From assembly GCA_009929375.1 (NCBI GenBank), contig SAAO01000026.1, positions 1-64,000 of the forward strand: DNA of 64,000 bases, read 5' to 3'. Position 1 is the first letter of the stretch. Every line of letters starts with the position of its first letter. Positions 12,129 through 22,644 of the stretch are shown one piece after another. Position numbers and translations under genes: made by a program. The notes under the pieces are model-generated. The model did not search any database. It worked only from the letters and a program-made list of their open reading frames with translations, and had not been told where the DNA came from. This DNA comes from Bacteroidia bacterium. Lineage in GTDB: Bacteria > Bacteroidota > Bacteroidia > Bacteroidales > Paludibacteraceae.

Positions 12129-15100
12129 ATGAAACAAATGAAAAAGTCACGAATTTTGTTAGGAGTTTTGCTGATGCTATCCCTTAGCATTATAGCTCAA
12201 ACTACTCCTAAGGTACAAAATCTCAGAACCGAGTATCTTCAAAATCCCGTTGGGATAGATGTAAAAACGCCAAGATTCAGTTGGGAAATGAGCCACTCCG
12301 CACGTGGAGCAAAACAAACAGCTTACGAAATTACGGTATCAACAAATCAATCGGGCGAAAATCCGGTGTGGACATCAGGCAAAGTGGAGTCGGAAAGGTC
12401 GGTAAACAATCCTTACAATGGCCCGACATTGGCTCCTTCCACACGTTACTATTGGCATGTGAACATCTGGGATCACACAAACACACAACTTACTTCTACC
12501 GAAACAGCATTCTTCGAAACCGGCTTACTCGATTCAGGTTGGGGCGATGCCAAATGGATTAAAGCCACCAACCTGAAACAGGGCGAAACAGCTTCGGAAA
12601 CGAGCATTACAAACTATACAATAAGTATGGACTTTCAGCTTAACGACATAGCTGCAGGTCCGTGTTTTGGTACAAGAGATGCCAATAACTTTTTTATGTG
12701 GCAAATTAATATCGAAACTGGCAGAGCTCGTTTCCGGCCTCATTCATGGTCGAATGGAAATGCGGTTTGCCACGAAAACAAAGACATTCAATCACTTATC
12801 AATATTCAAAAAGGAGTAATATACACACTTCGAATTGAAATAAAAGGCGACAAAGCAAGTACATATATCAATGAAATACTGATAGATGCCGACAGAGTAA
12901 ACCCACGGGGTGGTAATTACGGATTTGGTAATCTTGGCTTTCGCTCGGCTAAAGCTGAAACGAATGAAACGCTTGAATCGGCTTCGTTTGATAACATTAA
13001 GGTAACGACCAACGATCAGAATGTTGAAAAAATCCTGTTTGAAGAGCAGTTTGCTAATGCTGCCGATTTTGCATTTACAGCCGGCACGGTAGTGAATGGT
13101 CGGTTACTCGTAAACATGGGCAATAATATTGCATGGCAAAAAACCGAAAATGCACGTTTTACATTAGAAACCGACATGACTCTGTTGAACCAGAATGCAG
13201 GTATTATTTTTGGAGCAACCGACATTAACAACATGTATATGTGGTCGATAAACACCAAAGATCAGGCCTACCCACTCATTCGCCGACATGTATTTACCGG
13301 AAATAACCCTGTGGCTAATGAGGTTTCAATAGCTGCATTTTACTCAAAAGCAGATTTGATAGGAAAAGAACGCCGTGTGAAAATTGATGTGGAAAACAAT
13401 GTGATTAAAACTTATATTGACAATGTGCTTGTTGACACATACACCGATACAAGAGGCAGTTTGAAAAACGGACATGTAGGATTCAGAGCCTACAACGGCG
13501 ATAACAGCACTGATGAAATTGCTTTGTACGACAATATTGTACTTACCGATTATGTAAAAAATACAACAACAGGTGTTTTAGAGCCGGTAGTTACATTTTC
13601 CGAAAACTTCGAAAATGGTTCAAATGCATTCGAAGGTAGCGAAACTGTGGAAATTTCGGGCAATACAAAACTAAGAATGTCGGCCAAAGGATCGGATTTC
13701 AGAGTGCTTCAGGGAATTTCAACCGGAATATCTATGTTCAGAACCACCTTTGATATCGACAAAGAAATAAAATCAGCAAAAATATACAGTTCAGCGCTTG
13801 GAGTGTACGATTTGTTTATAAACGGAAGCCGGGTAGGCACTTCAACCGGGGATGGAAAAGTTATTTACGATGAATTAAAACCCGGCTGGACCGACTACAA
13901 CAAAACTGTATTTTACTCCACTTACGATGTAACAAACATCTTAAAATCAGGCGCAAATGCAATCGGAGCCAACGTAAGTCCCGGTTGGTGGAAGGGAGGC
14001 ATTGCGCATGGACAATATGGCGATAAAGATATAAGTCTGATTGTCAAACTAATCGTTCAGTACAACGACGGCACAACCAAAACAGTTGTCACCAACCCCG
14101 CATGGCTCACAAGCAAAACCGGACCGATACGCATGGGCGATATTTACAACGGCGAAACCTACGATGCACGTAATGAAAGTAACTGGACGAGTCCTGAGTT
14201 TAATGATTCAGAATGGCTTCAGACTACCGCATTCACTGGTTTTACCGGCAAAATAAAAGCTACGGTTGGCCCAACTGTGCAGGTTCGTCCCGAATTGAAT
14301 ATTGAACCAAAAACAATTACTATTTACGAAGGAACAAAAGATAATGGAAAAACTCACGGAGCCATCAACGTAATCAACACAATAAATGGCAAAGGAATCA
14401 TTCAGCTTAAAAAAGGGCAAACGGCCATTTACGATTTTGGTCAGAATATGGCTGGTTGGGTAAAATTCAAAGCAAAAGCAAGCTCAGGAACCAGTTTGAA
14501 AATTCGTTTCGGAGAAATTCTGAACGATGATGGTGCTTCATCAAGAGGAAACGACGGCCCTGCCGGAAGTCTCTATACTGCAAATTTGCGAAGTGCAAAA
14601 GCCACAATCACTTATATATTTAAAGGCAATGAAGCCGGGGAAATATACAATCCAAGCCATACCTTTTTCGGATTCAGATATTGCGAAATCACAACCAGTG
14701 CCGATGTGGAACTTCAATCGCTCATAGCCGAAGTTGTGGGTTCTGCTACTCAGGAAGGTTCATCGTTCAAAACAAGCAACGATTTAGTGAACAAACTGTA
14801 CAGCAATGTGATTTGGGGACAAAGAAGTAACTTTTTGAGCGTCCCAACCGATTGTCCGCAACGCGATGAACGTCAGGGCTGGGCAGGCGATACACAGATA
14901 TTCTCAGGTGCAGCAGCTTACAATGCAGATGTGGCTTCATTTTTTCACAAATGGTTGGGCGACATGCGGGATAGTCAACGCGGTGATGGCGCATTTCCGA
15001 GTACGGCACCAATTGTTTGGGGTGGATATGGACAAGGTGCCTGGGCCGAAGCCGGTATTATTGTACCATGGAATGTTTATTTGATGTACGACGATGCACG

Positions 15101-16382
15101 AATTATCGAAGATAATTTTGCTTCGATGGAAAAATATATGCAGTTTTTAGCCACTCAGGCCGGTGGAGGATACAATTACAACGGGGCTGGTGTTGACTTT
15201 GGCGATTGGGTTGCTTATGAAGCAATGGATAACAGGTACATCAGTGTTTGTTATTATGCTTACGCTGCACAATTGATGTCGAAAATGTCGAAAGTACTGA
15301 GTAAAACCGCCAACGATACCTACGACATTAAAAGCAGAAACTATTCAAATCTGTATAAAAATATCAAGGCTGAATTCCAGACCAGATATGTAAATCCCAA
15401 TGGCACATTAAAACAGGTATCGCAAACAGCTTATTTGCTGGCTTTAAAACTCGATTTATTCCCAAATGAAACAGCAAAAAACAACGGAATCGCATATCTT
15501 AATCAAAAAATTGCCAATAATGGAAATAAACTGAGTACAGGATTTATCGGTACAGGTATTCTGAATCAGACATTGAGTCAGTTTGGCTCAACAAATACAG
15601 CCTACAACCTGCTCCTTCAGCGCGGAAATCCATCGTGGTTGTACAGTATTGATCAGGGCGCAACCACTATCTGGGAACGCTGGGACTCATATACCATCGA
15701 AAAAGGATTCCAAACCGTAGTAATGAATTCGTTCAACCATTACGCCTATGGAGCAGTTTCAGAATGGATGTATCGGTTTATGGCGGGTATCGAAGCCGAT
15801 GAAAACACACCGGGGTTCAAACATTTCATTCTGCAACCGAATCCCGATAAGCGAACTAATTTGCCTTCAGGCCAGGAGCGGATTACTTCTGTGGAAGCAA
15901 AATACGATTCGTATTACGGCGATATCAAAAGTGAGTGGAAATTACGTGCCGATGGGAACTTAGCTTATACAGCCACAGTGCCGGCAAACAGCACAGCAAC
16001 ACTTTATTTACCATTCGAAAACGAAAATGATGTGATTTACGAAGGAACAATTCCGGCCGAAAATGCCGAAGGAGTAACTTTTGTGAAAAAAGAAAACGGA
16101 AAAGCCGTTTATGAGTTGAAATCGGGTTCTTACGAATTTGGCATCGATGTACCGGTAACAGGGACTAAAAAAGTGTTCAAAAAAAAAAGATTCGTTATAT
16201 ATCCAAATCCGGTAAATGATATGCTTACAATTTCGGAATCCAAAACGGATTATATCATTACAGATATGGCAGGTAATCAAATGAAAAATGGTTGCGACAC
16301 AAATGTATGTGTAAAGGATTTGTATCCGGGGGTTTATTTTGTGAAAACAGAAGATCAAATCAGTAAATTTCTAAAAAACTGA
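12129..16382 (+). CDS. GH78 alpha-L-rhamnosidase with two inserted sandwich domains and a type IX sorting domain
   Basis: A 1417-residue secreted protein. Order: signal peptide (1-24); fibronectin-like N domain (27-145, with NPVGIDVKTPRFSWEM); two similar concanavalin/DUF1080-like sandwich domains (about 155-295 and 300-480, each with an FFMWQINIETG or MYMWSINTKD strand); rhamnosidase N domain (about 530-690, AKIYSSALGVYDLFINGSRV); a second sandwich with IYDFGQNMAGWV; then the six-hairpin catalytic domain (from about 855). The catalytic region has CPQRDERQGWAGD with Asp913/Glu914 and TIWERWD with Glu1183, all as expected for the family. The C-terminus (about 1352-1417, IYPNPVNDMLTI to LKN) is a type IX secretion sorting domain, so the enzyme should be carried across the outer membrane. 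A second in-frame ATG lies at 12138. It diverges from the AraC gene. Confidence 0.92.
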   Translation: MKQMKKSRILLGVLLMLSLSIIAQTTPKVQNLRTEYLQNPVGIDVKTPRFSWEMSHSARGAKQTAYEITVSTNQSGENPVWTSGKVESERSVNNPYNGPTLAPSTRYYWHVNIWDHTNTQLTSTETAFFETGLLDSGWGDAKWIKATNLKQGETASETSITNYTISMDFQLNDIAAGPCFGTRDANNFFMWQINIETGRARFRPHSWSNGNAVCHENKDIQSLINIQKGVIYTLRIEIKGDKASTYINEILIDADRVNPRGGNYGFGNLGFRSAKAETNETLESASFDNIKVTTNDQNVEKILFEEQFANAADFAFTAGTVVNGRLLVNMGNNIAWQKTENARFTLETDMTLLNQNAGIIFGATDINNMYMWSINTKDQAYPLIRRHVFTGNNPVANEVSIAAFYSKADLIGKERRVKIDVENNVIKTYIDNVLVDTYTDTRGSLKNGHVGFRAYNGDNSTDEIALYDNIVLTDYVKNTTTGVLEPVVTFSENFENGSNAFEGSETVEISGNTKLRMSAKGSDFRVLQGISTGISMFRTTFDIDKEIKSAKIYSSALGVYDLFINGSRVGTSTGDGKVIYDELKPGWTDYNKTVFYSTYDVTNILKSGANAIGANVSPGWWKGGIAHGQYGDKDISLIVKLIVQYNDGTTKTVVTNPAWLTSKTGPIRMGDIYNGETYDARNESNWTSPEFNDSEWLQTTAFTGFTGKIKATVGPTVQVRPELNIEPKTITIYEGTKDNGKTHGAINVINTINGKGIIQLKKGQTAIYDFGQNMAGWVKFKAKASSGTSLKIRFGEILNDDGASSRGNDGPAGSLYTANLRSAKATITYIFKGNEAGEIYNPSHTFFGFRYCEITTSADVELQSLIAEVVGSATQEGSSFKTSNDLVNKLYSNVIWGQRSNFLSVPTDCPQRDERQGWAGDTQIFSGAAAYNADVASFFHKWLGDMRDSQRGDGAFPSTAPIVWGGYGQGAWAEAGIIVPWNVYLMYDDARIIEDNFASMEKYMQFLATQAGGGYNYNGAGVDFGDWVAYEAMDNRYISVCYYAYAAQLMSKMSKVLSKTANDTYDIKSRNYSNLYKNIKAEFQTRYVNPNGTLKQVSQTAYLLALKLDLFPNETAKNNGIAYLNQKIANNGNKLSTGFIGTGILNQTLSQFGSTNTAYNLLLQRGNPSWLYSIDQGATTIWERWDSYTIEKGFQTVVMNSFNHYAYGAVSEWMYRFMAGIEADENTPGFKHFILQPNPDKRTNLPSGQERITSVEAKYDSYYGDIKSEWKLRADGNLAYTATVPANSTATLYLPFENENDVIYEGTIPAENAEGVTFVKKENGKAVYELKSGSYEFGIDVPVTGTKKVFKKKRFVIYPNPVNDMLTISESKTDYIITDMAGNQMKNGCDTNVCVKDLYPGVYFVKTEDQISKFLKN

Positions 16383-16522: not shown

Positions 16523-18379
16523 CTACTTCTCCATCTGATTAACCGATTCGGCAAGTCTTATAAACTCCCGACGATAACCATTCTGATCATTTACCAGTCC
16601 CTTGCGGGCAAGTTCTATCACTTTGGCATATGTTGCAGTGCCTTTGAAATCGGAATCGCGCAGCAACTGACCAAACATGGCCACCGCCATTACAAAATTA
16701 TAATCGTCGGAAGCTTCTTTGACTGACGCTTTTACAGGCACTTCAATTTTCTGACTGCTGTTGCTTTCGGGCTGTTTATAGCGAAGTTTCACCGTCAGCA
16801 ATTCGTCGGTCAGCAAAGTGAAGTTGCTTTTTTCCTTTTTGGAAGGCTGATATTTTAAATCGTCCACATTGCCAAAGTTACTTTCCACACCCACAGGTAC
16901 AATTTCGTAAAGTGCAGTCACCGTATGTCCTGATCCAAGTTCGCCAGCATCTTTGGTATCATCATTAAAGTCCTCCTTGTTCAGCAAGCGGGTTTCGTAA
17001 CCTACAAGTCGATAAGCATTTACCTGAGCAGGATTGAATTCTACCTGAATTTTCACATCTTTGGCAACCGTAAACATTGTACTTCCGAATTCATTTACCA
17101 GTACCTTGTTGGCTTCCTGAATATTATCGATATAAGCATGATTTCCATTGCCTTTTTCGGCCAGTGTCTGCAGTTTTTTATCCTTATAATTACCCATTCC
17201 GTAACCAAGCACAGTGAGATATACACCCGTTTTTCGTTTCGATTCAATCAGGGATTCCAACTCTTCCGACGAACTTACGCCCACATTAAAATCGCCATCG
17301 GTACACAAAATAATGCGGTTGTTTCCACCATCAATAAAATTCTTTTCAGCAATTTTATAAGCCAGCTGAATACCTGCTCCACCTGCTGTAGAACCGCCTG
17401 CCGAAAGATTTTCAATTGCTTCACGAATTTTCTGACGATCGGAACCCGGAGTAGCCGGTAAAACTTCACCCGCAGCTCCTGCATATACCACAATCGAAAC
17501 TTTGTCCTTTTCGCGCAAATTATTTACCAACAAACGCAGCGACGATTTTACCAAATCGAGTTTCTGTGGTCCCGACATCGAACCCGATACATCAATCAAA
17601 AATACAAAATTCGAGGCCGGAAGTTTTTCCGAGGGTATTTCGCGCGCCTTCACGCCAATTCTTACTAATTGATGTTTCGCATTCCAGGGACATACAGCAG
17701 CTTCAGTCACAATATTTACAGGATGTTCACCCACAGGTTGCGGATAATCATAACTAAAATAATTGATCAGTTCCTCTACTCTAACCGCATCTTTCTGCGG
17801 CATTTGTCCCTGATTAATCATGCGACGGATATTTCCGTACGAAGCCGCATCCACATCCAGCGAAAAAGTAGAAAGCGCTTCAGATTTCACAGGCACAAAA
17901 CGGTTTTCGCGAAAAGCGCCGTATTCTTCTTTATCTTCAGCAATCGACACATTATAAGGCATCGCAGGAGGATAAATTCTCATTCCACGGTTCTGTTTGC
18001 GCGAGCCTGAAAGCCCTGCCAGTCTTCCCTGAAGTGAATTATTCACACTTCCGTAACCCACCATAACCACTTCCTGCAAAGCCTGATGGTCGGGTTGTAA
18101 TTGTACGTCCAGTCTTGGCCCGGTCACTTTCCGTTCAGTTCGCTGATAACTAATGTATGAAAACACGATGGTTTTGCCTTTGGCCACATTGAGTTTGTAT
18201 TCTCCGTTCAAATCCGTCACTGTTCCATTTCGTGTTCCTTTCTCCAACACTGTCGCTCCGGCTATTGGCTGAAGGGTTTCGTCGGTCACTTTTCCTTTTA
18301 CCTCGATGGTTTGAGCACTCAAAACTCCTGAGAAAAACACCATCATGCTCATTACCAATAATAATCTGATTGCTTTCAT
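16523..18379 (-). CDS. Secreted von Willebrand factor A protein with SusC-like N-terminal module
   Basis: A 618-residue protein. It has a signal peptide (1-22) and a carboxypeptidase-regulatory-like beta-sandwich (about 24-95, VKGKVTDETLQPIAGATV, GYKL-type strand). Then comes a SusC-like tail LQEVVMVGYG with LQGRLAGL (101-122), the part that in SusC precedes the plug, but no barrel follows. A YfbK-type N domain leads to a vWA domain with the metal site DVSGS at 263-267 (LIDVSGSMSGPQKLDL), a later CTDGDFNVG strand, and a YfbK-like C-terminal region. Such proteins are probably metal-dependent adhesion or complex-forming factors in the periplasm or at the surface. The gene faces away from an ECF sigma factor and its membrane partner, which carries the same module. 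A shared function is inferred. Ligand unknown. Confidence 0.85.
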   Translation of the reverse strand: MKAIRLLLVMSMMVFFSGVLSAQTIEVKGKVTDETLQPIAGATVLEKGTRNGTVTDLNGEYKLNVAKGKTIVFSYISYQRTERKVTGPRLDVQLQPDHQALQEVVMVGYGSVNNSLQGRLAGLSGSRKQNRGMRIYPPAMPYNVSIAEDKEEYGAFRENRFVPVKSEALSTFSLDVDAASYGNIRRMINQGQMPQKDAVRVEELINYFSYDYPQPVGEHPVNIVTEAAVCPWNAKHQLVRIGVKAREIPSEKLPASNFVFLIDVSGSMSGPQKLDLVKSSLRLLVNNLREKDKVSIVVYAGAAGEVLPATPGSDRQKIREAIENLSAGGSTAGGAGIQLAYKIAEKNFIDGGNNRIILCTDGDFNVGVSSSEELESLIESKRKTGVYLTVLGYGMGNYKDKKLQTLAEKGNGNHAYIDNIQEANKVLVNEFGSTMFTVAKDVKIQVEFNPAQVNAYRLVGYETRLLNKEDFNDDTKDAGELGSGHTVTALYEIVPVGVESNFGNVDDLKYQPSKKEKSNFTLLTDELLTVKLRYKQPESNSSQKIEVPVKASVKEASDDYNFVMAVAMFGQLLRDSDFKGTATYAKVIELARKGLVNDQNGYRREFIRLAESVNQMEK

Positions 18380-18447
18380 AATTTCCTGAATTTAATTGTT
18401 TATAGTATCAATTTCAATAAAAAATTTCCCATATGCAAAAACCGGAA

Positions 18448-18490
18448 CTCCCCTTTAGAGCTTGCCCGCCGTGGCGGGGGTTGGGGGTAG
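18448..18490. repeat. Degenerate copy of the CCCCTTTAGGGG repeat
   Basis: CTCCCCTTTAGAGCTTG begins here and runs into a CCCGCC/GGCGGG mini-hairpin and GGTTGGGGGTAG. It is a longer, imperfect relative of the cleaner copies at 18693, 18743 and 19508. Confidence 0.5.
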
Positions 18491-18692
18491 TTTTAATATC
18501 CGGCTTTTGATATATAGAGTAAATTATTCACGAAATTCCATAAGGCCACACAAAATATTTTTCTAATTTTGTGAAATAAGTAATTGTAAGAATATTAAGT
18601 GGATATTTTTAATCCCTTTTTGAAATTTAAATCAATACAACCTGGACTGAATATTTTCGGAGAATTAATAACAAAACGATGGTAACTATAAG

Positions 18693-18754
18693 CCCCTTTA
18701 GGGGTTTGGGGCGGTTTTCATAATTTTTTACATAGCCCCACGCCCCTAAAGGGG
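18693..18754. repeat. Inverted pair of CCCCTTTAGGGG repeats
   Basis: CCCCTTTAGGGGTTTGGGGC (18693-18712) and its inverted copy ending CCCCTAAAGGGG (18735-18754) pair over 18 of 20 positions with a 22 nt loop. Each half is itself a 12 bp palindrome, so the whole can form a branched structure. It lies upstream of the sigma factor gene. Confidence 0.7.
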
Positions 18755-18827
18755 ATGTGGATTACCAAAATTTCAATAATTCTTGATATATTAAATTCAA
18801 TCTCTAAGATAAATACAAAAGCGAGAT

Positions 18828-19442
18828 TTGCTCATACAACATAATTTCCATTCACATTATAAATCATTGAAAAACAAAGGCAAAATATCGGATTATAGCG
18901 ACGAGGAATTGCTTCAGGCATTCCGGCAATCGAACGATATGAAGTATTTTGCAGAGCTTTATACGCGGTTTGTGCCAAAGCTTTACGGGCTTTGTCTGAA
19001 ATATATGGCCGACCGCGAGTCAGCACGCGATGCCGTGATGGATATTTTTCAGCAATTGCCCGAAAAAATTGCGCAGTACGAGATTGCAAACTTTAATTCG
19101 TGGCTTTATTCAGTGGCCAAAAATCATTGTTTCAGTCGCCTGAAAAAAGAAAACCAGGTTTATTTTGTAAAAATGGAAGATGCAGTTGTGGAAAATGACA
19201 CTTTTTTTAGTCATAATGATAAACCGCAATCGGAAGAAGAAGTAGAAGCGCTCGAATATTGCATCGAAACGCTGACCGATGAACAAAAAACAAGCGTAAA
19301 ACTGTTTTATTTAGAAAATCGCTCTTATGCCGACATTTGCGACATGACAGGCTTTGCACTGAGCAAAGTAAAAAGCTATATTCAGAATGGAAAACGAAAT
19401 TTAAAAAGCTGTATATTAAAGGTTTTGAAAAACAATAATTAA
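18828..19442 (+). CDS. ECF-type RNA polymerase sigma factor
   Basis: Up to 204 residues. Region 2 is clear (YSDEELLQAFRQSNDMKYFAELYTRFVPKLYGLCLKYM, then DAVMDIFQQLPEKI and FNSWLYSVAKNHCF), and region 4 lies at the end (LTDEQKTSVKLFYLENRSYADICDMTGFALSKVKSYIQNGKRNLK). There is no sigma 3 domain and no ATG before region 2. In-frame starts are TTG at 18828 or a second TTG about 14 codons later, with a TAA stop at 18810-18812, so initiation is at a non-ATG codon. The next gene (224 bp on) encodes a single-pass membrane protein of anti-sigma layout. The divergent vWA gene is a likely target. Cytoplasmic; the inducing signal is unknown. Confidence 0.88.
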   Translation: MLIQHNFHSHYKSLKNKGKISDYSDEELLQAFRQSNDMKYFAELYTRFVPKLYGLCLKYMADRESARDAVMDIFQQLPEKIAQYEIANFNSWLYSVAKNHCFSRLKKENQVYFVKMEDAVVENDTFFSHNDKPQSEEEVEALEYCIETLTDEQKTSVKLFYLENRSYADICDMTGFALSKVKSYIQNGKRNLKSCILKVLKNNN

Positions 19443-19507
19443 ACACATAATTCTGCTTTGACAGAGAAAATTTGAATTATTTTTTTTTAGACAAAAGTAA
19501 TTCACAT

Positions 19508-19527
19508 CCCCTTTAGGGGCTTGGGGC
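19508..19527. repeat. CCCCTTTAGGGG repeat copy
   Basis: CCCCTTTAGGGGCTTGGGGC matches the first arm of the inverted pair at 18693. It lies in the spacer between the sigma factor and its membrane partner, within the same transcription unit. Confidence 0.65.
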
Positions 19528-19666
19528 AGAGATAAAATTGAATAAGCCCTGATCTCTGTAAAAATGGAAACATTGATTTAGAGACAATTGATTTATTTTC
19601 AGAAACAGTTATCTCATTACCTAATAATAAAAATTTCAAGCGACAAGGAAGTCGCTTCTCCTGAAA

Positions 19667-20908
19667 ATGAAACTAAAAGATTACATACAAGGCAAACGAC
19701 ATGGCGAAGAAGCGAACCGACTGGAGCGCGAAGCCATGAACGATCCCTTCCTGAACGACGCCATCGATGGTTTCGATAGCGTGGAAGGCGATCATTTGTC
19801 GGTAATCGGCGAACTCGAAAAGCAAATTGCGGGCAAAAACAGAAGTCACAAACCCTTTGTGCAGTACATGATTACAGGCATTGCAGCTTCAATGGCACTT
19901 CTTATAGGCTTCAGCATTTTTATGAATCAGGAAAACTCTCCTGCTCCGGAACTGGTACAAACCGAAATTAAAGATACAATCCGGAAAAAAGAAATTGCTC
20001 AAAAAGATTTGGCCGCTCAAAAGAATAAACCTGAAGTATCAAAAATAGCGAAAGAAACAGAAAAGCAATTCATTCAGGCAAAAAAAGCAATTCCTGCAGT
20101 TCCGAAAGCCATTGCTATGGCAGAAATTTCGATTCAGGAAGAAGAAATCTCTGAACAATTTATCAATGAAGACAAGTCAATGAGTACGGCTCACTTACTT
20201 ACTGAAATGGAAGTGCCTGTTTTAGCTGCTGCAAAACCCGAAAACTTAGCTACAGCCCTGAGAACGAAAGATCTGCAGGCGGCAAACAATTCAAAACCAT
20301 ATATATTTACAGGCATAATTACCGACGAGGATGGTTTGCCATTGCCAGGAGTCTCTATTCAGGCCGCCAATTCGAACTTCGGCACAATATCGGATATGGA
20401 TGGAAAATTCAAACTTGAAATACCCGACACCACAAAAACCAAAACATTGCTGGCAAAATATATTGGTTACAATCCTCAAAAAATCGCGTTGAGCAGCGAC
20501 ACACAAACCATTAGAATGAAACCTGACGAACTGGCGCTCAATGAAGTTGTAGGGGTTGGATATGGCCAAAAACGCATTTTTAACAGATCGACAAAAACAA
20601 CAAGTGTAGACGGGGCCCTTCAGGGTCGTGTGGCGGGTTTGGATACCAATTCGAAAAAAACAACTTTTGGAGAAAGAGAATTCCGTAAATATTTTGAAGA
20701 AAACCGCAGAACCGGTATTTGTGCAAGTGGCGAGTTTACACTGAAAGCCCGTTTCCGAATAGATGAAAGCGGAAAACCTACTAATATTGAAATTCTGAAT
20801 TCAGATTGCGATGAACTGAAAGGCGAGTTTTTGCGTTTAATGGAACAAAGTCCGCTCTGGAGACCTAAAAACCGTGAAATAAGCATCACATTGAAAATTA
20901 AGAATTAA
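19667..20908 (+). CDS. Probable membrane anti-sigma factor with carboxypeptidase-regulatory and TonB-C-like domains
   Basis: A 413-residue protein. A short cytoplasmic N-terminus (1-62, with a KLKDYIQGK / NDPFLNDAIDGF pattern seen in Bacteroidota anti-sigma-like proteins) is followed by one transmembrane helix (about 65-86). A Lys/Glu-rich linker (90-205) leads to a carboxypeptidase-regulatory-like domain (211-285, FTGIITDEDGLPLPGVSI). Then come the SusC-like words LNEVVGVGYG (291-300) and LQGRVAGL (318-325), and a C-terminal domain (about 335-413, LKARFRIDESGKPTNIEIL, WRPKNREISITLKI) that resembles TonB C-terminal domains. The layout fits an inner-membrane protein that holds the sigma factor and senses something in the periplasm. 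It shares the SusC-like words with the divergent vWA protein. Domain calls are by eye and the function is inferred. Confidence 0.75.
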   Translation: MKLKDYIQGKRHGEEANRLEREAMNDPFLNDAIDGFDSVEGDHLSVIGELEKQIAGKNRSHKPFVQYMITGIAASMALLIGFSIFMNQENSPAPELVQTEIKDTIRKKEIAQKDLAAQKNKPEVSKIAKETEKQFIQAKKAIPAVPKAIAMAEISIQEEEISEQFINEDKSMSTAHLLTEMEVPVLAAAKPENLATALRTKDLQAANNSKPYIFTGIITDEDGLPLPGVSIQAANSNFGTISDMDGKFKLEIPDTTKTKTLLAKYIGYNPQKIALSSDTQTIRMKPDELALNEVVGVGYGQKRIFNRSTKTTSVDGALQGRVAGLDTNSKKTTFGEREFRKYFEENRRTGICASGEFTLKARFRIDESGKPTNIEILNSDCDELKGEFLRLMEQSPLWRPKNREISITLKIKN

Positions 20909-20999
20909 GTTATGAGTATTGAGTTCCGGCTGACCAGAACTCAGACTAAATGTCGTAGATCGGAACGGTGCGACATGAAAGTTCATGCCATATTTTTAT

Positions 21000-21007
21000 T
21001 ATCTTTG
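21000..21007 (+). promoter_or_regulatory. Possible -7 box upstream of the FAD-dehydrogenase gene
   Basis: TATCTTTG matches TAnnTTTG and would give a leader of about 64 nt to the ATG at 21076. No clear -33 box was seen. Confidence 0.35.
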
Positions 21008-21075
21008 CTGAACATTATCAGGACTTACATTCTCCGGAGCGCAAATTGAATTTACCGATATTTGCAAAAAAGATT

Positions 21076-22644
21076 ATGCACACACAAATACAACTCATAC
21101 TTACACCCGAACAAGCTGAGAAACAGGAACTTTTAATTGTAAAAGTTGCCGAAGCCCTCAAAACAACACCCAAACACATAAACCGCATTCGTACTGTGCG
21201 GAAATCTATCGACGCACGCTCATTTCAGGTGAAAATAAATCTGACAGTGGATGTGTATATGGACGAAGAAGCTCCGACCGACCTTTACGAGCCATTCAAC
21301 TATCCCAATGTATCGGCAGCAAAACCCGTCCTGGTGATTGGTGGCGGCCCTGCCGGACTTTTTGCAGCTTTGAAACTGATCGAAAATGGTCTGAAACCCA
21401 TCCTGCTCGAAAGAGGTAAAAAAGCCAAGGAACGTGTACACGATATTGCCAAACTTAACCTGAAAAAAGGCTTCAATCCTGAGTCGAATTACTGCTTTGG
21501 CGAGGGTGGCGCAGGTACCTTTTCCGACGGAAAACTCTATTCGCGTTCAAAGAAAAAAGGCAATCTTCAAAGGGTTTACGAGATTTTTCATTATCATGGA
21601 GCTGCCGAAGACATTTTGTTCGAAGCGCACCCACACATAGGTTCTGACAAACTTCCCACTATTGTCGACAACATAAGCAAAACCATTGAAAACTGCGGAG
21701 GCGAAATACATTTCGGACAAAAGCTGGTGGAAATTGTAACCGAAAACAACAAAGTAAAAGGTTGCAAAACCGAAAGCGGTGAGTTTTTCGAAGCCGAAGC
21801 GCTGATATTGGCCACAGGACATTCAGCTCACGACATTTACGAAATGCTTCACAACCAAAACATTGCACTTGAACTTAAAGGTTTTGCCATGGGCGTTCGT
21901 GTGGAGCATCCGCAAACACTTATCGACAGCATTCAATATCACAGCAAAGAACGCAACGAATATCTGCCTGCTGCCAGCTACAGCCTGGTGGAACAGGTAA
22001 ACGAACGTGGCGTATATTCGTTTTGTATGTGTCCCGGAGGCCGAATTGTGCCTGCAGGAACTTCAGAAACTGGTATTGTGGTCAACGGAATGTCGGCTTC
22101 GCGCCGCAATTCGCCATTTGCCAATTCAGGTATTGTGGTCGAAATCCGTCCCGAAGATATTCCGGAGGAATTTAAAGAATACGGTACGCTCGCCGGGCTC
22201 AAATTTCAGCAACACATTGAACATCTGGCTTATCTGAACAATGGAGGACTGGGACAAACAGCTCCTGCACAGCGTATGCTCGACTTTGTAAAAGGAAAGG
22301 TTTCGGCCGATTTGCCGGAATGTTCGTATATGCCGGGAATTATTTCATCGCCATTGCATTTCTGGCTACCTGAAATAATTTCGAGCCGGTTAAAAGAAGG
22401 GTTCAAAAAATTTGACCGCAAAATGCGCGGTTATCTGACCAACGAAGCTGTGGTGGTAGGTGTGGAAACACGTTCGTCATCGGCTGTGCGTATCCCACGC
22501 AATCCCGAGAGCGGTATGCACCCCGATTTACAGGGACTTTTTCCTGCCGGTGAAGGCTCAGGTTTCTCGGGTGGAATCACCTCTTCGGCCATCGATGGTG
22601 AGAATGCAGCACTGTCGGTTCTCCGTTATTTTGAAAATGCATGA
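21076..22644 (+). CDS. FAD-dependent dehydrogenase, COG2509 type
   Basis: A 522-residue cytoplasmic flavoprotein. After an N-terminal beta/alpha region (about 1-80) comes the dinucleotide-binding motif VIGGGPAGLFAALKL (about residues 93-107), followed by ERGKKAKERVHD and the family-typical NYCFGEGGAGTFSDGKLYSR. Later motifs are ATGHSAHDIYEML, GVRVEHPQ, MCPGG and the closing GEGSGFSGGITSSAIDGENAA. Proteins of this kind are annotated as FAD-dependent dehydrogenases with no established substrate. I start at the ATG at 21076: the frame reaches 20968 only through a GTG, and the extra 36 residues look non-coding. tatC follows 40 bp downstream on the same strand. Confidence 0.88.
   Translation: MHTQIQLILTPEQAEKQELLIVKVAEALKTTPKHINRIRTVRKSIDARSFQVKINLTVDVYMDEEAPTDLYEPFNYPNVSAAKPVLVIGGGPAGLFAALKLIENGLKPILLERGKKAKERVHDIAKLNLKKGFNPESNYCFGEGGAGTFSDGKLYSRSKKKGNLQRVYEIFHYHGAAEDILFEAHPHIGSDKLPTIVDNISKTIENCGGEIHFGQKLVEIVTENNKVKGCKTESGEFFEAEALILATGHSAHDIYEMLHNQNIALELKGFAMGVRVEHPQTLIDSIQYHSKERNEYLPAASYSLVEQVNERGVYSFCMCPGGRIVPAGTSETGIVVNGMSASRRNSPFANSGIVVEIRPEDIPEEFKEYGTLAGLKFQQHIEHLAYLNNGGLGQTAPAQRMLDFVKGKVSADLPECSYMPGIISSPLHFWLPEIISSRLKEGFKKFDRKMRGYLTNEAVVVGVETRSSSAVRIPRNPESGMHPDLQGLFPAGEGSGFSGGITSSAIDGENAALSVLRYFENA

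Follow-up and report, generated by a model that had tools for sequence, protein, structure and literature searches.

Genes and features of the locus

The window analysed here is a stretch of 64,000 nucleotides from Bacteroidia bacterium (assembly GCA_009929375.1, contig SAAO01000026.1). It contains a gene for a vWA protein of the YfbK family, lying opposite a gene for an ECF sigma factor, which is followed on its own strand by a gene for a membrane anti-sigma factor (Table 1). The trio is flanked by genes for an alpha-L-rhamnosidase and an FAD-dependent protein, and no transporter is encoded beside it. All features of the initial annotation, which had been made from the sequence alone, were found in their places by open reading frame analysis and domain scans.

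Table 1. Positions in the window of the three genes, their domains and the promoter-like sites
Feature	Position	Strand	Basis
vWA protein, YfbK family, 618 aa	16523..18379	-	vWF_A, VWA and YfbK_C above Pfam cut-offs
SusC-type NTE (CarbopepD_reg_2) of vWA protein, residues 27-105	18065..18301	-	Pfam 2e-18
Ton-box-like EVVMVGYG of vWA protein, residues 103-110	18050..18073	-	sequence; position as Bt1763 Ton box
LQGRLAGL plug remnant of vWA protein, residues 116-123	18011..18034	-	sequence; orthologues not conserved here
VWA domain with intact MIDAS-type residues, 259-418	17126..17605	-	Pfam; alignment
YfbK_C domain of vWA protein, residues 433-615	16535..17083	-	Pfam 1.5e-74
Promoter-like site TTATGGAA-N14-TACTCTA toward vWA gene	18515..18543	-	motif search; genome scan
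ECF sigma factor, 204 aa from TTG; real start may lie further in	18828..19442	+	Sigma70_r2 9e-10, r4_2 2e-10
Motif copy inside sigma gene, TTGTGGAA-N14-TAGTC	19186..19212	+	window bases; congeners compared
Membrane anti-sigma factor, 413 aa, TonB-like periplasmic end	19667..20908	+	domain scans, alignment, model, profile
Cytoplasmic anti-sigma domain, residues 1-59, zinc-less zf-HC2 relative	19667..19843	+	model helices 3-59; relatives' zf-HC2
Single transmembrane helix, residues 63-89	19853..19933	+	model; hydropathy
SusC-type NTE (CarbopepD_reg_2) of anti-sigma, residues 215-295	20309..20551	+	Pfam 4e-15; fold match 9hfj SusC NTE
Ton-box-like EVVGVGYG of anti-sigma, residues 293-300	20543..20566	+	sequence
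LQGRVAGL plug remnant of anti-sigma, residues 318-325	20618..20641	+	sequence
TonB C-terminal-type domain of anti-sigma, residues 336-412	20672..20902	+	model; profile match to TonB chains

The vWA protein starts with a signal-peptide-like N-terminus. Its domain order of vWF_A (residues 149-240), VWA and YfbK_C, with E-values of 7e-40, 1e-19 and 1.5e-74, makes it a member of the YfbK family. The metal site, described as intact beforehand, consists of the MIDAS-type residues D263, S265, S267, T331 and D361, which are invariant in all 15 aligned vWA proteins, the window's included. Homology to RseB was found neither among the Pfam rows nor among the best 50 Foldseek rows; by Pfam the protein is of the vWA/YfbK type.

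Both the vWA protein and the anti-sigma protein carry a CarbopepD_reg domain followed by EVVxVGYG, and this composite is the N-terminal extension (NTE) of SusC together with a Ton box. In Bt1763, the Ton box DEVVVTG likewise directly follows the NTE (PF13715), an extension without assigned function according to the relevant passages of PMC7782687. SusC/RagA proteins comprise NTE, Ton box, plug and barrel, of which TIGR04056 matches the N-terminal piece only (vWA protein 1e-29, anti-sigma protein 1e-26; positions 1-90 and 4-136 of 981). Ton-box-like stretches, a short pattern, occur in 52 of the 59 vWA proteins and in 45 of 46 anti-sigma proteins with an NTE. The motif LQGRxAGL had been counted among the matching modules; we rejected it as a functional part because relatives lose it, and regard it as a plug remnant. 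No transporter barrel is present in the set, in line with the proposed independence from a TonB-dependent transporter. The identification of the composite as NTE plus Ton box, and of a TonB domain in the partner, goes beyond the initial annotation.

The membrane protein, previously called anti-sigma-like, is an anti-sigma factor as judged by homology. There is no zf-HC2 match in the window protein itself; the domain lies above the cut-off in the orthologues L083 (3e-6) and L266 (2e-5), both of which align with the window protein, and slightly under it in L114 (6e-4). Through these intermediates, a class I (ZAS-type) assignment, with a zf-HC2-homologous domain before the transmembrane helix, is indicated. 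The window protein lacks the zinc ligands H-x3-C-x2-C, which 4 of the 46 aligned proteins possess. FecR was matched neither by the window protein (E<=1) nor by 14 other unfused anti-sigma proteins (E<=0.1 or 0.5).

The periplasmic end of the divergent-type anti-sigma factor is, according to profile comparisons, a TonB C-terminal domain. The TonB-C-like domain proposed earlier is weak in the window protein taken singly (TonB_C 0.026 in Pfam), and stands on its relatives: TonB_C matches 9 of 11 other divergent-kind proteins scanned with Pfam (9e-17 to 8e-6), and a profile of 46 anti-sigma proteins matches PDB TonB chains at 6e-7 to 5e-5. It was not found in the two remaining divergent-kind proteins, both congeners (L201, L188), in the anti-sigma proteins scanned from loci with another gene order (L091, L135, L076), or in five fusions. 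The modelled C-terminal fold is helix-strand-strand-helix-strand with ten-residue pLDDT means of 87-98, within a whole-protein model of pTM 0.32. A structure search with this model returned the SusC NTE and no TonB among the best 50 rows, so that the TonB assignment rests on the profiles. In a viral structure library, the matches were one SusC and assorted viral proteins.

Distribution and gene orders of the cassette

The three-gene signalling cassette of ECF sigma factor, membrane anti-sigma factor and vWA/YfbK protein is conserved and widespread in Bacteroidota. The co-occurrence of the three genes, put forward from the window alone, withstood a survey over many genera in which the trio was found again. 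The divergent cassette, with the vWA gene opposite the sigma and membrane genes, was detected at 61 loci; motif counts use 59, after removal of the duplicates L218 (= L195) and L229 (= L069). A same-strand gene lies downstream of sigma in 59 of the 61 loci, the other two being at contig ends; its product has a TM-like helix in 59/59 and an NTE in 48/59, with no NTE detected in 11/59. Two other arrangements were observed: type B operons (n=11) with the order sigma, anti-sigma, vWA, and type C loci (n=8), where sigma is followed by anti-sigma and vWA fused into one polypeptide. Full-length domain scans of five fused proteins placed zf-HC2 at the N-terminus of L065 and L068. At least two separate regions of the tree contain fusions.

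Within an even sample of the phylum (92 regions, with L106, L131, L153 and L154 dropped for want of an accepted YfbK copy), 30 of 94 YfbK copies are ECF-linked. These linkage counts are probably lower bounds, as type N takes in loci truncated by contig ends (L196) and perhaps also loci whose sigma frame is masked by the long vWA frame (L225). Around the vWA gene, an ECF gene occupies slot -1 in 28/124 and slot -2 in 12/120 cases, and the remaining slots at most three times (of 65 to 126). The named set gave 36/79 and 4/75, with 0 or 1 in the remaining slots; it is biased to close relatives, since it was taken as the best 80 of 595 confirmed matches. At eight loci outside Bacteroidota (L226, L267, L273, L274, L280, L287, L290, L292; some contigs short) no sigma gene was found among the few neighbours shown. 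In the divergent YfbK subfamily a neighbour of 178-182 aa had looked like a possible sigma factor, but its scanned representative (L145) proved to be a phosphoribosyltransferase.

It might be that in Bacteroidota, where both ECF genes and SusC-type N-termini abound, a shared module carries no meaning and the genes are only loosely associated. SusC N-termini are indeed frequent, with 49 PF13715 matches in the window's genome, and 62 of the 94 YfbK copies have no linked ECF gene, 36 of these 62 with an NTE. Such a loose neighbourhood is nevertheless scarcely credible: it is already contradicted by the positional enrichment of the ECF gene beside the vWA gene, by the several gene orders and the fusions, by a divergent arrangement that is retained where the outer flanking genes differ, and by the oriented DNA motif.

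Promoter-like motifs

A promoter-like motif with the family-wide form TTATGGAA-N14-GCATC is oriented toward the vWA gene, and a second copy lies in the sigma coding sequence; both are new in this analysis. At up to two mismatches the first was found in 54 of the 59 divergent cassettes and, after one shuffle of each, in 0/59; the opposite orientation gave 8/58 at up to three mismatches. The -10 element of the window is TACTC, versus GCATC in the majority, and the window's variant has one exact copy in its 3.87 Mb genome. In the window, the internal copy differs by one base from the TACTC of congeners. Among the 59 sigma genes, 33 contain the internal motif at up to one mismatch, against a mean of 7.3 and a maximum of 13 in 200 under a synonymous-codon null, so that its conservation exceeds synonymous-codon expectation; in 19 of the 59 its score is weak, at 3-4. 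In the type B and C operons, CCAACCT stands upstream of sigma in 15/16 (two zf-HC2 fusions excepted), with the same -10 forms.

Of 36 exact sites across 19 named genomes, 24 fall within the cassette, against a total of one match for the control pattern; in four of these genomes the cassette is without an exact site. The Paludibacter-type pattern gave 102 matches at up to three mismatches in 13 genomes, versus 35 for its control; with a spacer one base longer there were 52 matches, none in a cassette (control 49). Eleven cassettes match this pattern with at most one mismatch, every other row with two or three. From these numbers, weaker further targets of the sigma factor are conceivable. Additional exact sites precede lpxB and exbD in two Sphingobacterium species and, in some genomes, genes for an alpha-2-macroglobulin with a Plug match and for DUF4139 proteins with an NTE. 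Taken together, the sites suggest that the vWA gene is the main target of the sigma factor, and we predict a narrow regulon. As the conserved motif points at the vWA gene, information seems to flow also from sigma to the vWA protein.

Location of the vWA protein and a model for signalling

We place the vWA protein in the periplasm, because in eight loci it is fused to an anti-sigma factor anchored in the inner membrane. Domains of the vWA type often bind extracellular ligands, and with its intact metal site the protein might act at the cell surface and inform the anti-sigma factor of a ligand outside the cell. This is very improbable: the domain scan gave no T9SS-tail match in the window protein, 57 of 61 divergent-type copies are without a lipobox-like motif (a crude pattern), and the fused copies sit on an inner-membrane anchor. 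The surface or T9SS route was therefore set aside, and with it the earlier label 'secreted', in so far as it means beyond the periplasm. Of the surface-to-sigma path suggested at the same time, the pairing of anti-sigma and vWA protein is borne out by the fusions, whereas the surface origin is not.

The explanation we favour, with roughly even confidence, is a largely self-contained envelope-sensing loop similar to that of RseA and RseB, in which the vWA protein would be both the main target of sigma and the periplasmic partner of the anti-sigma factor. Observed directly are the conservation of the gene set, the identity of the domains, the fusions and an oriented DNA motif under DNA-level constraint; we infer that the promoters are active, that sigma is bound and the two proteins touch, in which direction the system responds, and what signal it senses. 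Sigma would be held by the cytoplasmic domain of the anti-sigma factor, whose periplasmic part in the divergent type is TonB-like (NTE, Ton box and putative TonB C-terminal domain). The vWA protein would be exported to the periplasm and bind the anti-sigma factor there, possibly by the TonB domain gripping its Ton box, by the NTEs of the two proteins, or by both, and act as sensor and co-inhibitor in the manner of RseB with RseA. A periplasmic event would break the contact and free sigma; this might be the binding of a ligand to the MIDAS site, or Ton boxes and TonB being competed for. Transcription by sigma may then start at the intergenic site for the vWA gene and, for the anti-sigma gene, at the site inside the sigma coding sequence. 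More effector or sensor would be made, and the system would reset. Where the vWA and anti-sigma genes are fused, the vWA part is suggested to be the sensor. Docking through the Ton box cannot be universal, since TonB_C is missing from the two congeners, the other gene orders and the five fusions.

A somewhat unlikely alternative is that the vWA protein is the mere output of an envelope-stress sigma factor, and that the anti-sigma factor senses alone, for which TonB/ExbBD engagement is one conceivable cue and unassembled SusC transporters with free Ton boxes are another. It would account for the strongest conserved site facing the vWA gene and for the extra exact sites before envelope genes in some genomes, and the anti-sigma factor does own an NTE, a Ton box and a TonB domain. 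Against it speak the fusions: in those loci the vWA part forms the periplasmic domain of the anti-sigma protein, a position for which a pure effector has no need.

For the divergent cassettes, a still less probable reading can be given, in which the anti-sigma factor would be a TonB protein turned sensor that reads Ton-box occupancy (of the vWA protein, possibly of idle SusC) and signals directly to sigma, with the vWA protein as the dedicated product of sigma and the Ton-box ligand that silences it. Its probability is lowered by the lack of TonB_C in the scanned anti-sigma proteins of other orders and in two congeners. If true, a sigma pathway would be built wholly of transporter parts with no transporter, and a second promoter, for the anti-sigma factor, would be written into the sigma coding sequence. 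Bacteroides fragilis is a gut commensal with established genetics. It carries a relative of the cassette (62% identity in the vWA protein), which opens the model to testing.

Comparison with known systems

Among the literature matches listed, with subscription articles outside the scope, we found none that joins YfbK or vWA proteins with an ECF/anti-sigma set, in accordance with the earlier view that the arrangement is undescribed; the passages on YfbK among them assign no mechanism to YfbK-type vWA proteins. The cassette offers a setting for such proteins and for the SusC NTE, with a narrow predicted regulon and a candidate pair of Ton box and TonB domain. It also presents anti-sigma factors with a probable TonB domain, and a sigma gene that contains a promoter-like site.

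In E. coli, the genes for the sigma factor RpoE, its single-pass anti-sigma factor RseA and the periplasmic partner RseB belong to one set. The same three parts are found here, and type B operons share the order sigma, anti-sigma, third gene. However, a vWA/YfbK protein, which in the window bears an NTE and a Ton box, fills the partner's place, the anti-sigma factor has a putative TonB domain, the vWA gene has a separate divergent promoter-like site, and fusions exist. The YfbK family (E. coli b2270, PF12450+PF00092+PF12034) includes the window protein, which adds the SusC NTE and Ton box and is ECF-linked, whereas E. coli yfbK is not adjacent to a sigma gene.

With FecI-FecR-FecA the cassette has in common an ECF sigma factor, a membrane anti-sigma factor and SusC/TonB-related modules (in part after passages of PMC7782687), but there is no FecR match and no transporter by the window's trio, and the TonB-type domain resides in the anti-sigma factor. 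Dma and Reo, encoded with their own sigma factors Das and EcfO, are also anti-sigma factors of Bacteroidota with unusual extracytoplasmic parts, according to passages of PMC13088901, PMC13114119 and PMC9308784. They span to the outer membrane with a predicted beta-barrel C-terminus (in the relevant part of PMC9308784), whereas in the window's anti-sigma factor, which at 413 aa shows no barrel in the model, the C-terminus is a TonB-type domain, and the partner is a vWA protein. SusC/RagA proteins such as Bt1763 share the NTE followed at once by the Ton box; there the module leads into plug and barrel, whereas here it is borne by a vWA protein and an anti-sigma factor.

Conservation of the gene set

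The three reading frames of the initial annotation were correctly placed. By its Pfam domains (CarbopepD_reg_2, vWF_A, VWA and YfbK_C) the minus-strand vWA protein is a YfbK protein, and the middle gene carries sigma regions 2 and 4 (Pfam). An even sample of the phylum (395 genomes) had PF12034 in 83 genomes, and a set of 100 relatives had it in 34; from these sets 92 and 34 regions, respectively, were fetched, in addition to 80 named loci (the best 80 of 595). Within the phylum and relatives sets, where 128 YfbK copies were mapped (window included), an ECF gene stood beside the vWA gene at slot -1 in 28/124 and at slot -2 in 12/120 cases, with at most three at every other slot. Among the named loci (best 80 of 595) the counts were 36/79 and 4/75. 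This positional enrichment and the occurrence of the divergent cassette, with vWA opposite sigma and anti-sigma, in many genera bear out the suggested co-occurrence of the three genes. Of the 94 YfbK copies in the even sample, which include a paralogue from the window's own genome, 30 were ECF-linked (12 divergent, 10 sigma-anti-sigma-vWA operons, 6 fused, 2 vWA-first), 62 were unlinked and 2 lay at contig edges. Linked genera among the best 80 of 595 named loci included Paludibacter, Bacteroides (B. fragilis), Limnovirga, Pontibacter, Pedobacter, Mucilaginibacter, Sphingobacterium, Dyadobacter, Hymenobacter, Reichenbachiella, Roseivirga and Mangrovibacterium.

A same-strand gene follows sigma in 59 of 61 divergent cassettes, the other two being at contig ends; its product has a TM-like helix in 59/59 and a SusC-type N-terminal extension (NTE) in 48/59. 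The outer neighbours differ between genomes, as judged by eye. In the window, sigma and anti-sigma genes are separated by an unusually wide gap of 225 bases, and they overlap in many relatives. A REP-like element, with 85 copies in the genome at one mismatch or fewer (control pattern none), may explain this gap. Frames similar in length to that of the FAD-dependent protein follow the anti-sigma gene at L184 and L193. At another locus, L078, no sigma gene was found between the divergent genes and an exact motif copy remains, possibly reflecting loss of the sigma gene. The YfbK protein of L226, a contig whose name assigns it to a Fibrobacterota (Chitinispirillales) MAG, falls inside the Bacteroidales cassette clade of the tree, through either transfer or a binning error.

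Features of the cassette, its surroundings and related loci
Feature	Position	Strand	Remark
vWA (YfbK) gene	16523-18379	minus	618 aa
ECF sigma gene	18828-19442	plus	
Anti-sigma gene	19667-20908	plus	413 aa
Promoter-like site TTATGGAA-N14-TACTCTA	18543 to 18515	minus	only exact copy in genome
Internal motif copy	19186-19212		one base off congeners' TACTCTA form
REP-like palindromic element CCCCTTTAGGGGNTTGGGG	18693-18711, 18736-18754, 19508-19526		both sides of sigma gene
FAD-dependent protein (FAD-depend_C)	20968-22644		after anti-sigma gene in window and congener L186
GH78-type alpha-L-rhamnosidase, 1417 aa, Por secretion tail	12129-16382		adjoins cassette, not a member
Second YfbK-type protein, 487 aa	L143 6865-8328 (own genome, contig C3)		no NTE, no sigma gene beside it; several congeners have one of this kind
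Divergent vWA and anti-sigma genes	L078 4691-8241		
DUF4139/DUF4140 proteins with inserted CarbopepD_reg_2, and alpha-2-macroglobulin with Plug hit	L360 2913-4775, L364 4267-6207, L359 1697-7612		same promoter-like site, other genera
exbD and lpxB loci, two Sphingobacterium species	L362 3892-4545, L363 3963-4616, L365 3722-4828, L366 4427-5539		exact site

The shared SusC-type module

The SusC/RagA model (NCBIfam) covers only positions 1-90 and 4-136 of 981 in the vWA and the membrane protein; both thus carry a SusC N-terminus without plug and barrel. In SusC transporters the Ton box (DEVVVTG in Bt1763) comes directly after the NTE (PF13715), and strains lacking either of the two show poor or no growth on the substrate (PMC7782687). 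EVVMVGYG and EVVGVGYG occupy this position after the NTE. A Ton-box-like stretch was found there in 52/59 vWA proteins and in 45/46 NTE-detected anti-sigma factors with a wider pattern, picked post hoc once the sequences had been seen, and in 36/59 and 41/46 with a stricter one. LQGRxAGL, listed in the initial annotation as part of the shared composite, is a plug remnant and mostly gone in relatives. The vWA metal site is intact as described, its residues being invariant in 15 aligned proteins. YfbK paralogues of about 490 aa (L209-L217, and L143 on contig C3 of the window's genome) have neither NTE nor adjoining sigma gene.

The anti-sigma factor and its fusions

The window's membrane protein matches CarbopepD_reg_2 and, below threshold, TonB_C (0.026; Pfam). 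Its zinc ligands are lost, and H-x3-C-x2-C is kept in 4/46 aligned proteins; zf-HC2 is still matched in relatives at L083 (3e-6), L266 (2e-5) and L114 (6e-4). Through these intermediates, homology identifies its N-terminal part as an anti-sigma domain. The AlphaFold2 model (46 sequences, mean pLDDT 74, pTM 0.32) has helices at 3-59, a long helix at 63-89, low confidence to about 210, then the NTE, and a C-terminal helix-strand-strand-helix-strand domain at 336-412. In a fold search the CarbopepD_reg_2 domain was closest to the solved SusC NTE 9hfj (E 1e-7, target TM-score 0.86), and the last part of the profile of 46 proteins matched solved TonB C-terminal domains (6e-7 to 5e-5). TonB_C was matched by Pfam in 9/11 divergent-kind relatives scanned (best 9e-17) and was absent from the other two, congeners L201 and L188, as well as from the scanned anti-sigma proteins of other gene orders (L091, L135, L076).

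At eight loci the frame after sigma encodes a single long protein whose TM-like helix precedes the vWA core. Two of these, L065 and L068, begin with zf-HC2 (Pfam, 2e-7 and 6e-9); in the fusions without such a match the anti-sigma part is assigned from position, for L096 and L107 also because their first 70 residues resemble, by eye, L091, the anti-sigma protein of the neighbouring kind, while L253 and L297 were identified by frame length and hydropathy. In the five fusions scanned whole (L065, L068, L096, L124, L139), an NTE lies between the helix and the vWA part. On a tree of 205 YfbK cores (quick method, SH-aLRT only) the fused label requires 6 changes, of which well-supported branches force 4 or more. 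As predicted from this architecture, the vWA part of the fusions can only be periplasmic, near the inner membrane. The initial annotation had proposed a surface vWA protein and a path from the surface to sigma, but the fusions hold vWA in the periplasm; no other single finding argues as strongly for a joint function of anti-sigma and vWA, or against a protein at the surface.

Promoter-like sites and predicted regulon

The vWA-sigma intergenic stretches have TTATGGAA-N14-GCATC in common, reading toward the vWA gene; the form in Paludibacter relatives is TTTATGGAAT-N12-TGTATCTAA. Its GGAA occupies the -35 place, a feature common among ECF promoters. At a score of 3 or less the motif occurs in 57/58 regions (one empty region omitted; the window's counted hit is a chance site), 54 with the same spacer, compared with 8/58 when read the other way and 0-7 across 20 shuffles. 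If both -10 forms and up to 2 mismatches are allowed, it precedes 54/59 divergent vWA genes (one shuffle per region, 0), 0/21 of types B (operon), C (fusion) and D, 0/2 contig-edge copies, 12/71 unlinked vWA genes with and 3/50 without NTE, and 6/94 sigma genes. Apart from the two zf-HC2 fusions, type B and C operons have a different upstream element, CCAACCT (15/16), before GCATC- or TACTCTA-like bases.

A further copy of this motif lies within the coding frame of sigma, upstream of the anti-sigma gene: at one mismatch or fewer it is found in 33/59 cases, whereas 200 rounds of synonymous-codon shuffling averaged 7.3 and never exceeded 13; weak copies (score 3 or 4) are found in 19/59. In copies that retain the motif's His codon, the following residue is P, L, Q or H, and its codon nearly always begins with C. 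The varying residue with a near-constant base, together with the excess over shuffling, shows a constraint acting on the DNA itself, which a promoter of the anti-sigma gene would be expected to show. In 7 congeners the TACTCTA form, which is also the -10 form of the window's intergenic site, occurs once per genome, exactly at the internal site; it is absent in 4 other congeners and lies elsewhere in one more distant genome (control pattern, 2 hits).

Exact sites in 19 named genomes number 36, 24 of them in the cassette (control pattern, 1); 15 genomes have a cassette site, two other sites only and two none. The other 12 include sites upstream of lpxB and of exbD in each of the two Sphingobacterium species, with differing spacer sequences, before a second ECF gene, an alpha-2-macroglobulin with a Plug hit and DUF4139 proteins with an inserted NTE (Mucilaginibacter, Roseivirga; the latter site overlaps the called start); two precede unscanned proteins and two lie within other coding frames. 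Barrel-less SusC modules, as in these DUF4139 proteins and the alpha-2-macroglobulin, may be a common mark of several periplasmic proteins within a single regulon. Over 13 genomes, those of the window's genus and one further genome taken together, the strict vWA-type site gave 13 hits, 10 in the cassette and 3 elsewhere. With 3 mismatches, 102 hits stand against 35 for the control and 52 for a wrong spacer, which leaves room for weaker targets. Sigma's main predicted target is the vWA gene. The vWA protein could be read as a mere output; the fusions argue for a joint function.

Proposed mechanism and comparison with known systems

We infer the anti-sigma/vWA contact, the use of the promoters and the signal. 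In the divergent type, the terminal TonB domain of the anti-sigma factor could dock directly on the partner's Ton box; the other gene orders seem to be without this domain, so docking there must differ. In the open literature searched, with subscription papers and the ECF classification outside it, we found no description of a vWA/YfbK, ECF sigma and anti-sigma set. By homology the membrane protein belongs to the class I anti-sigma factors, and it is not of the FecR or the Dma/Reo type. The parts of the cassette fit a loop like that of RseA/RseB, which likewise joins sigma, anti-sigma and a periplasmic partner, and in which the partner would itself be under the control of sigma.
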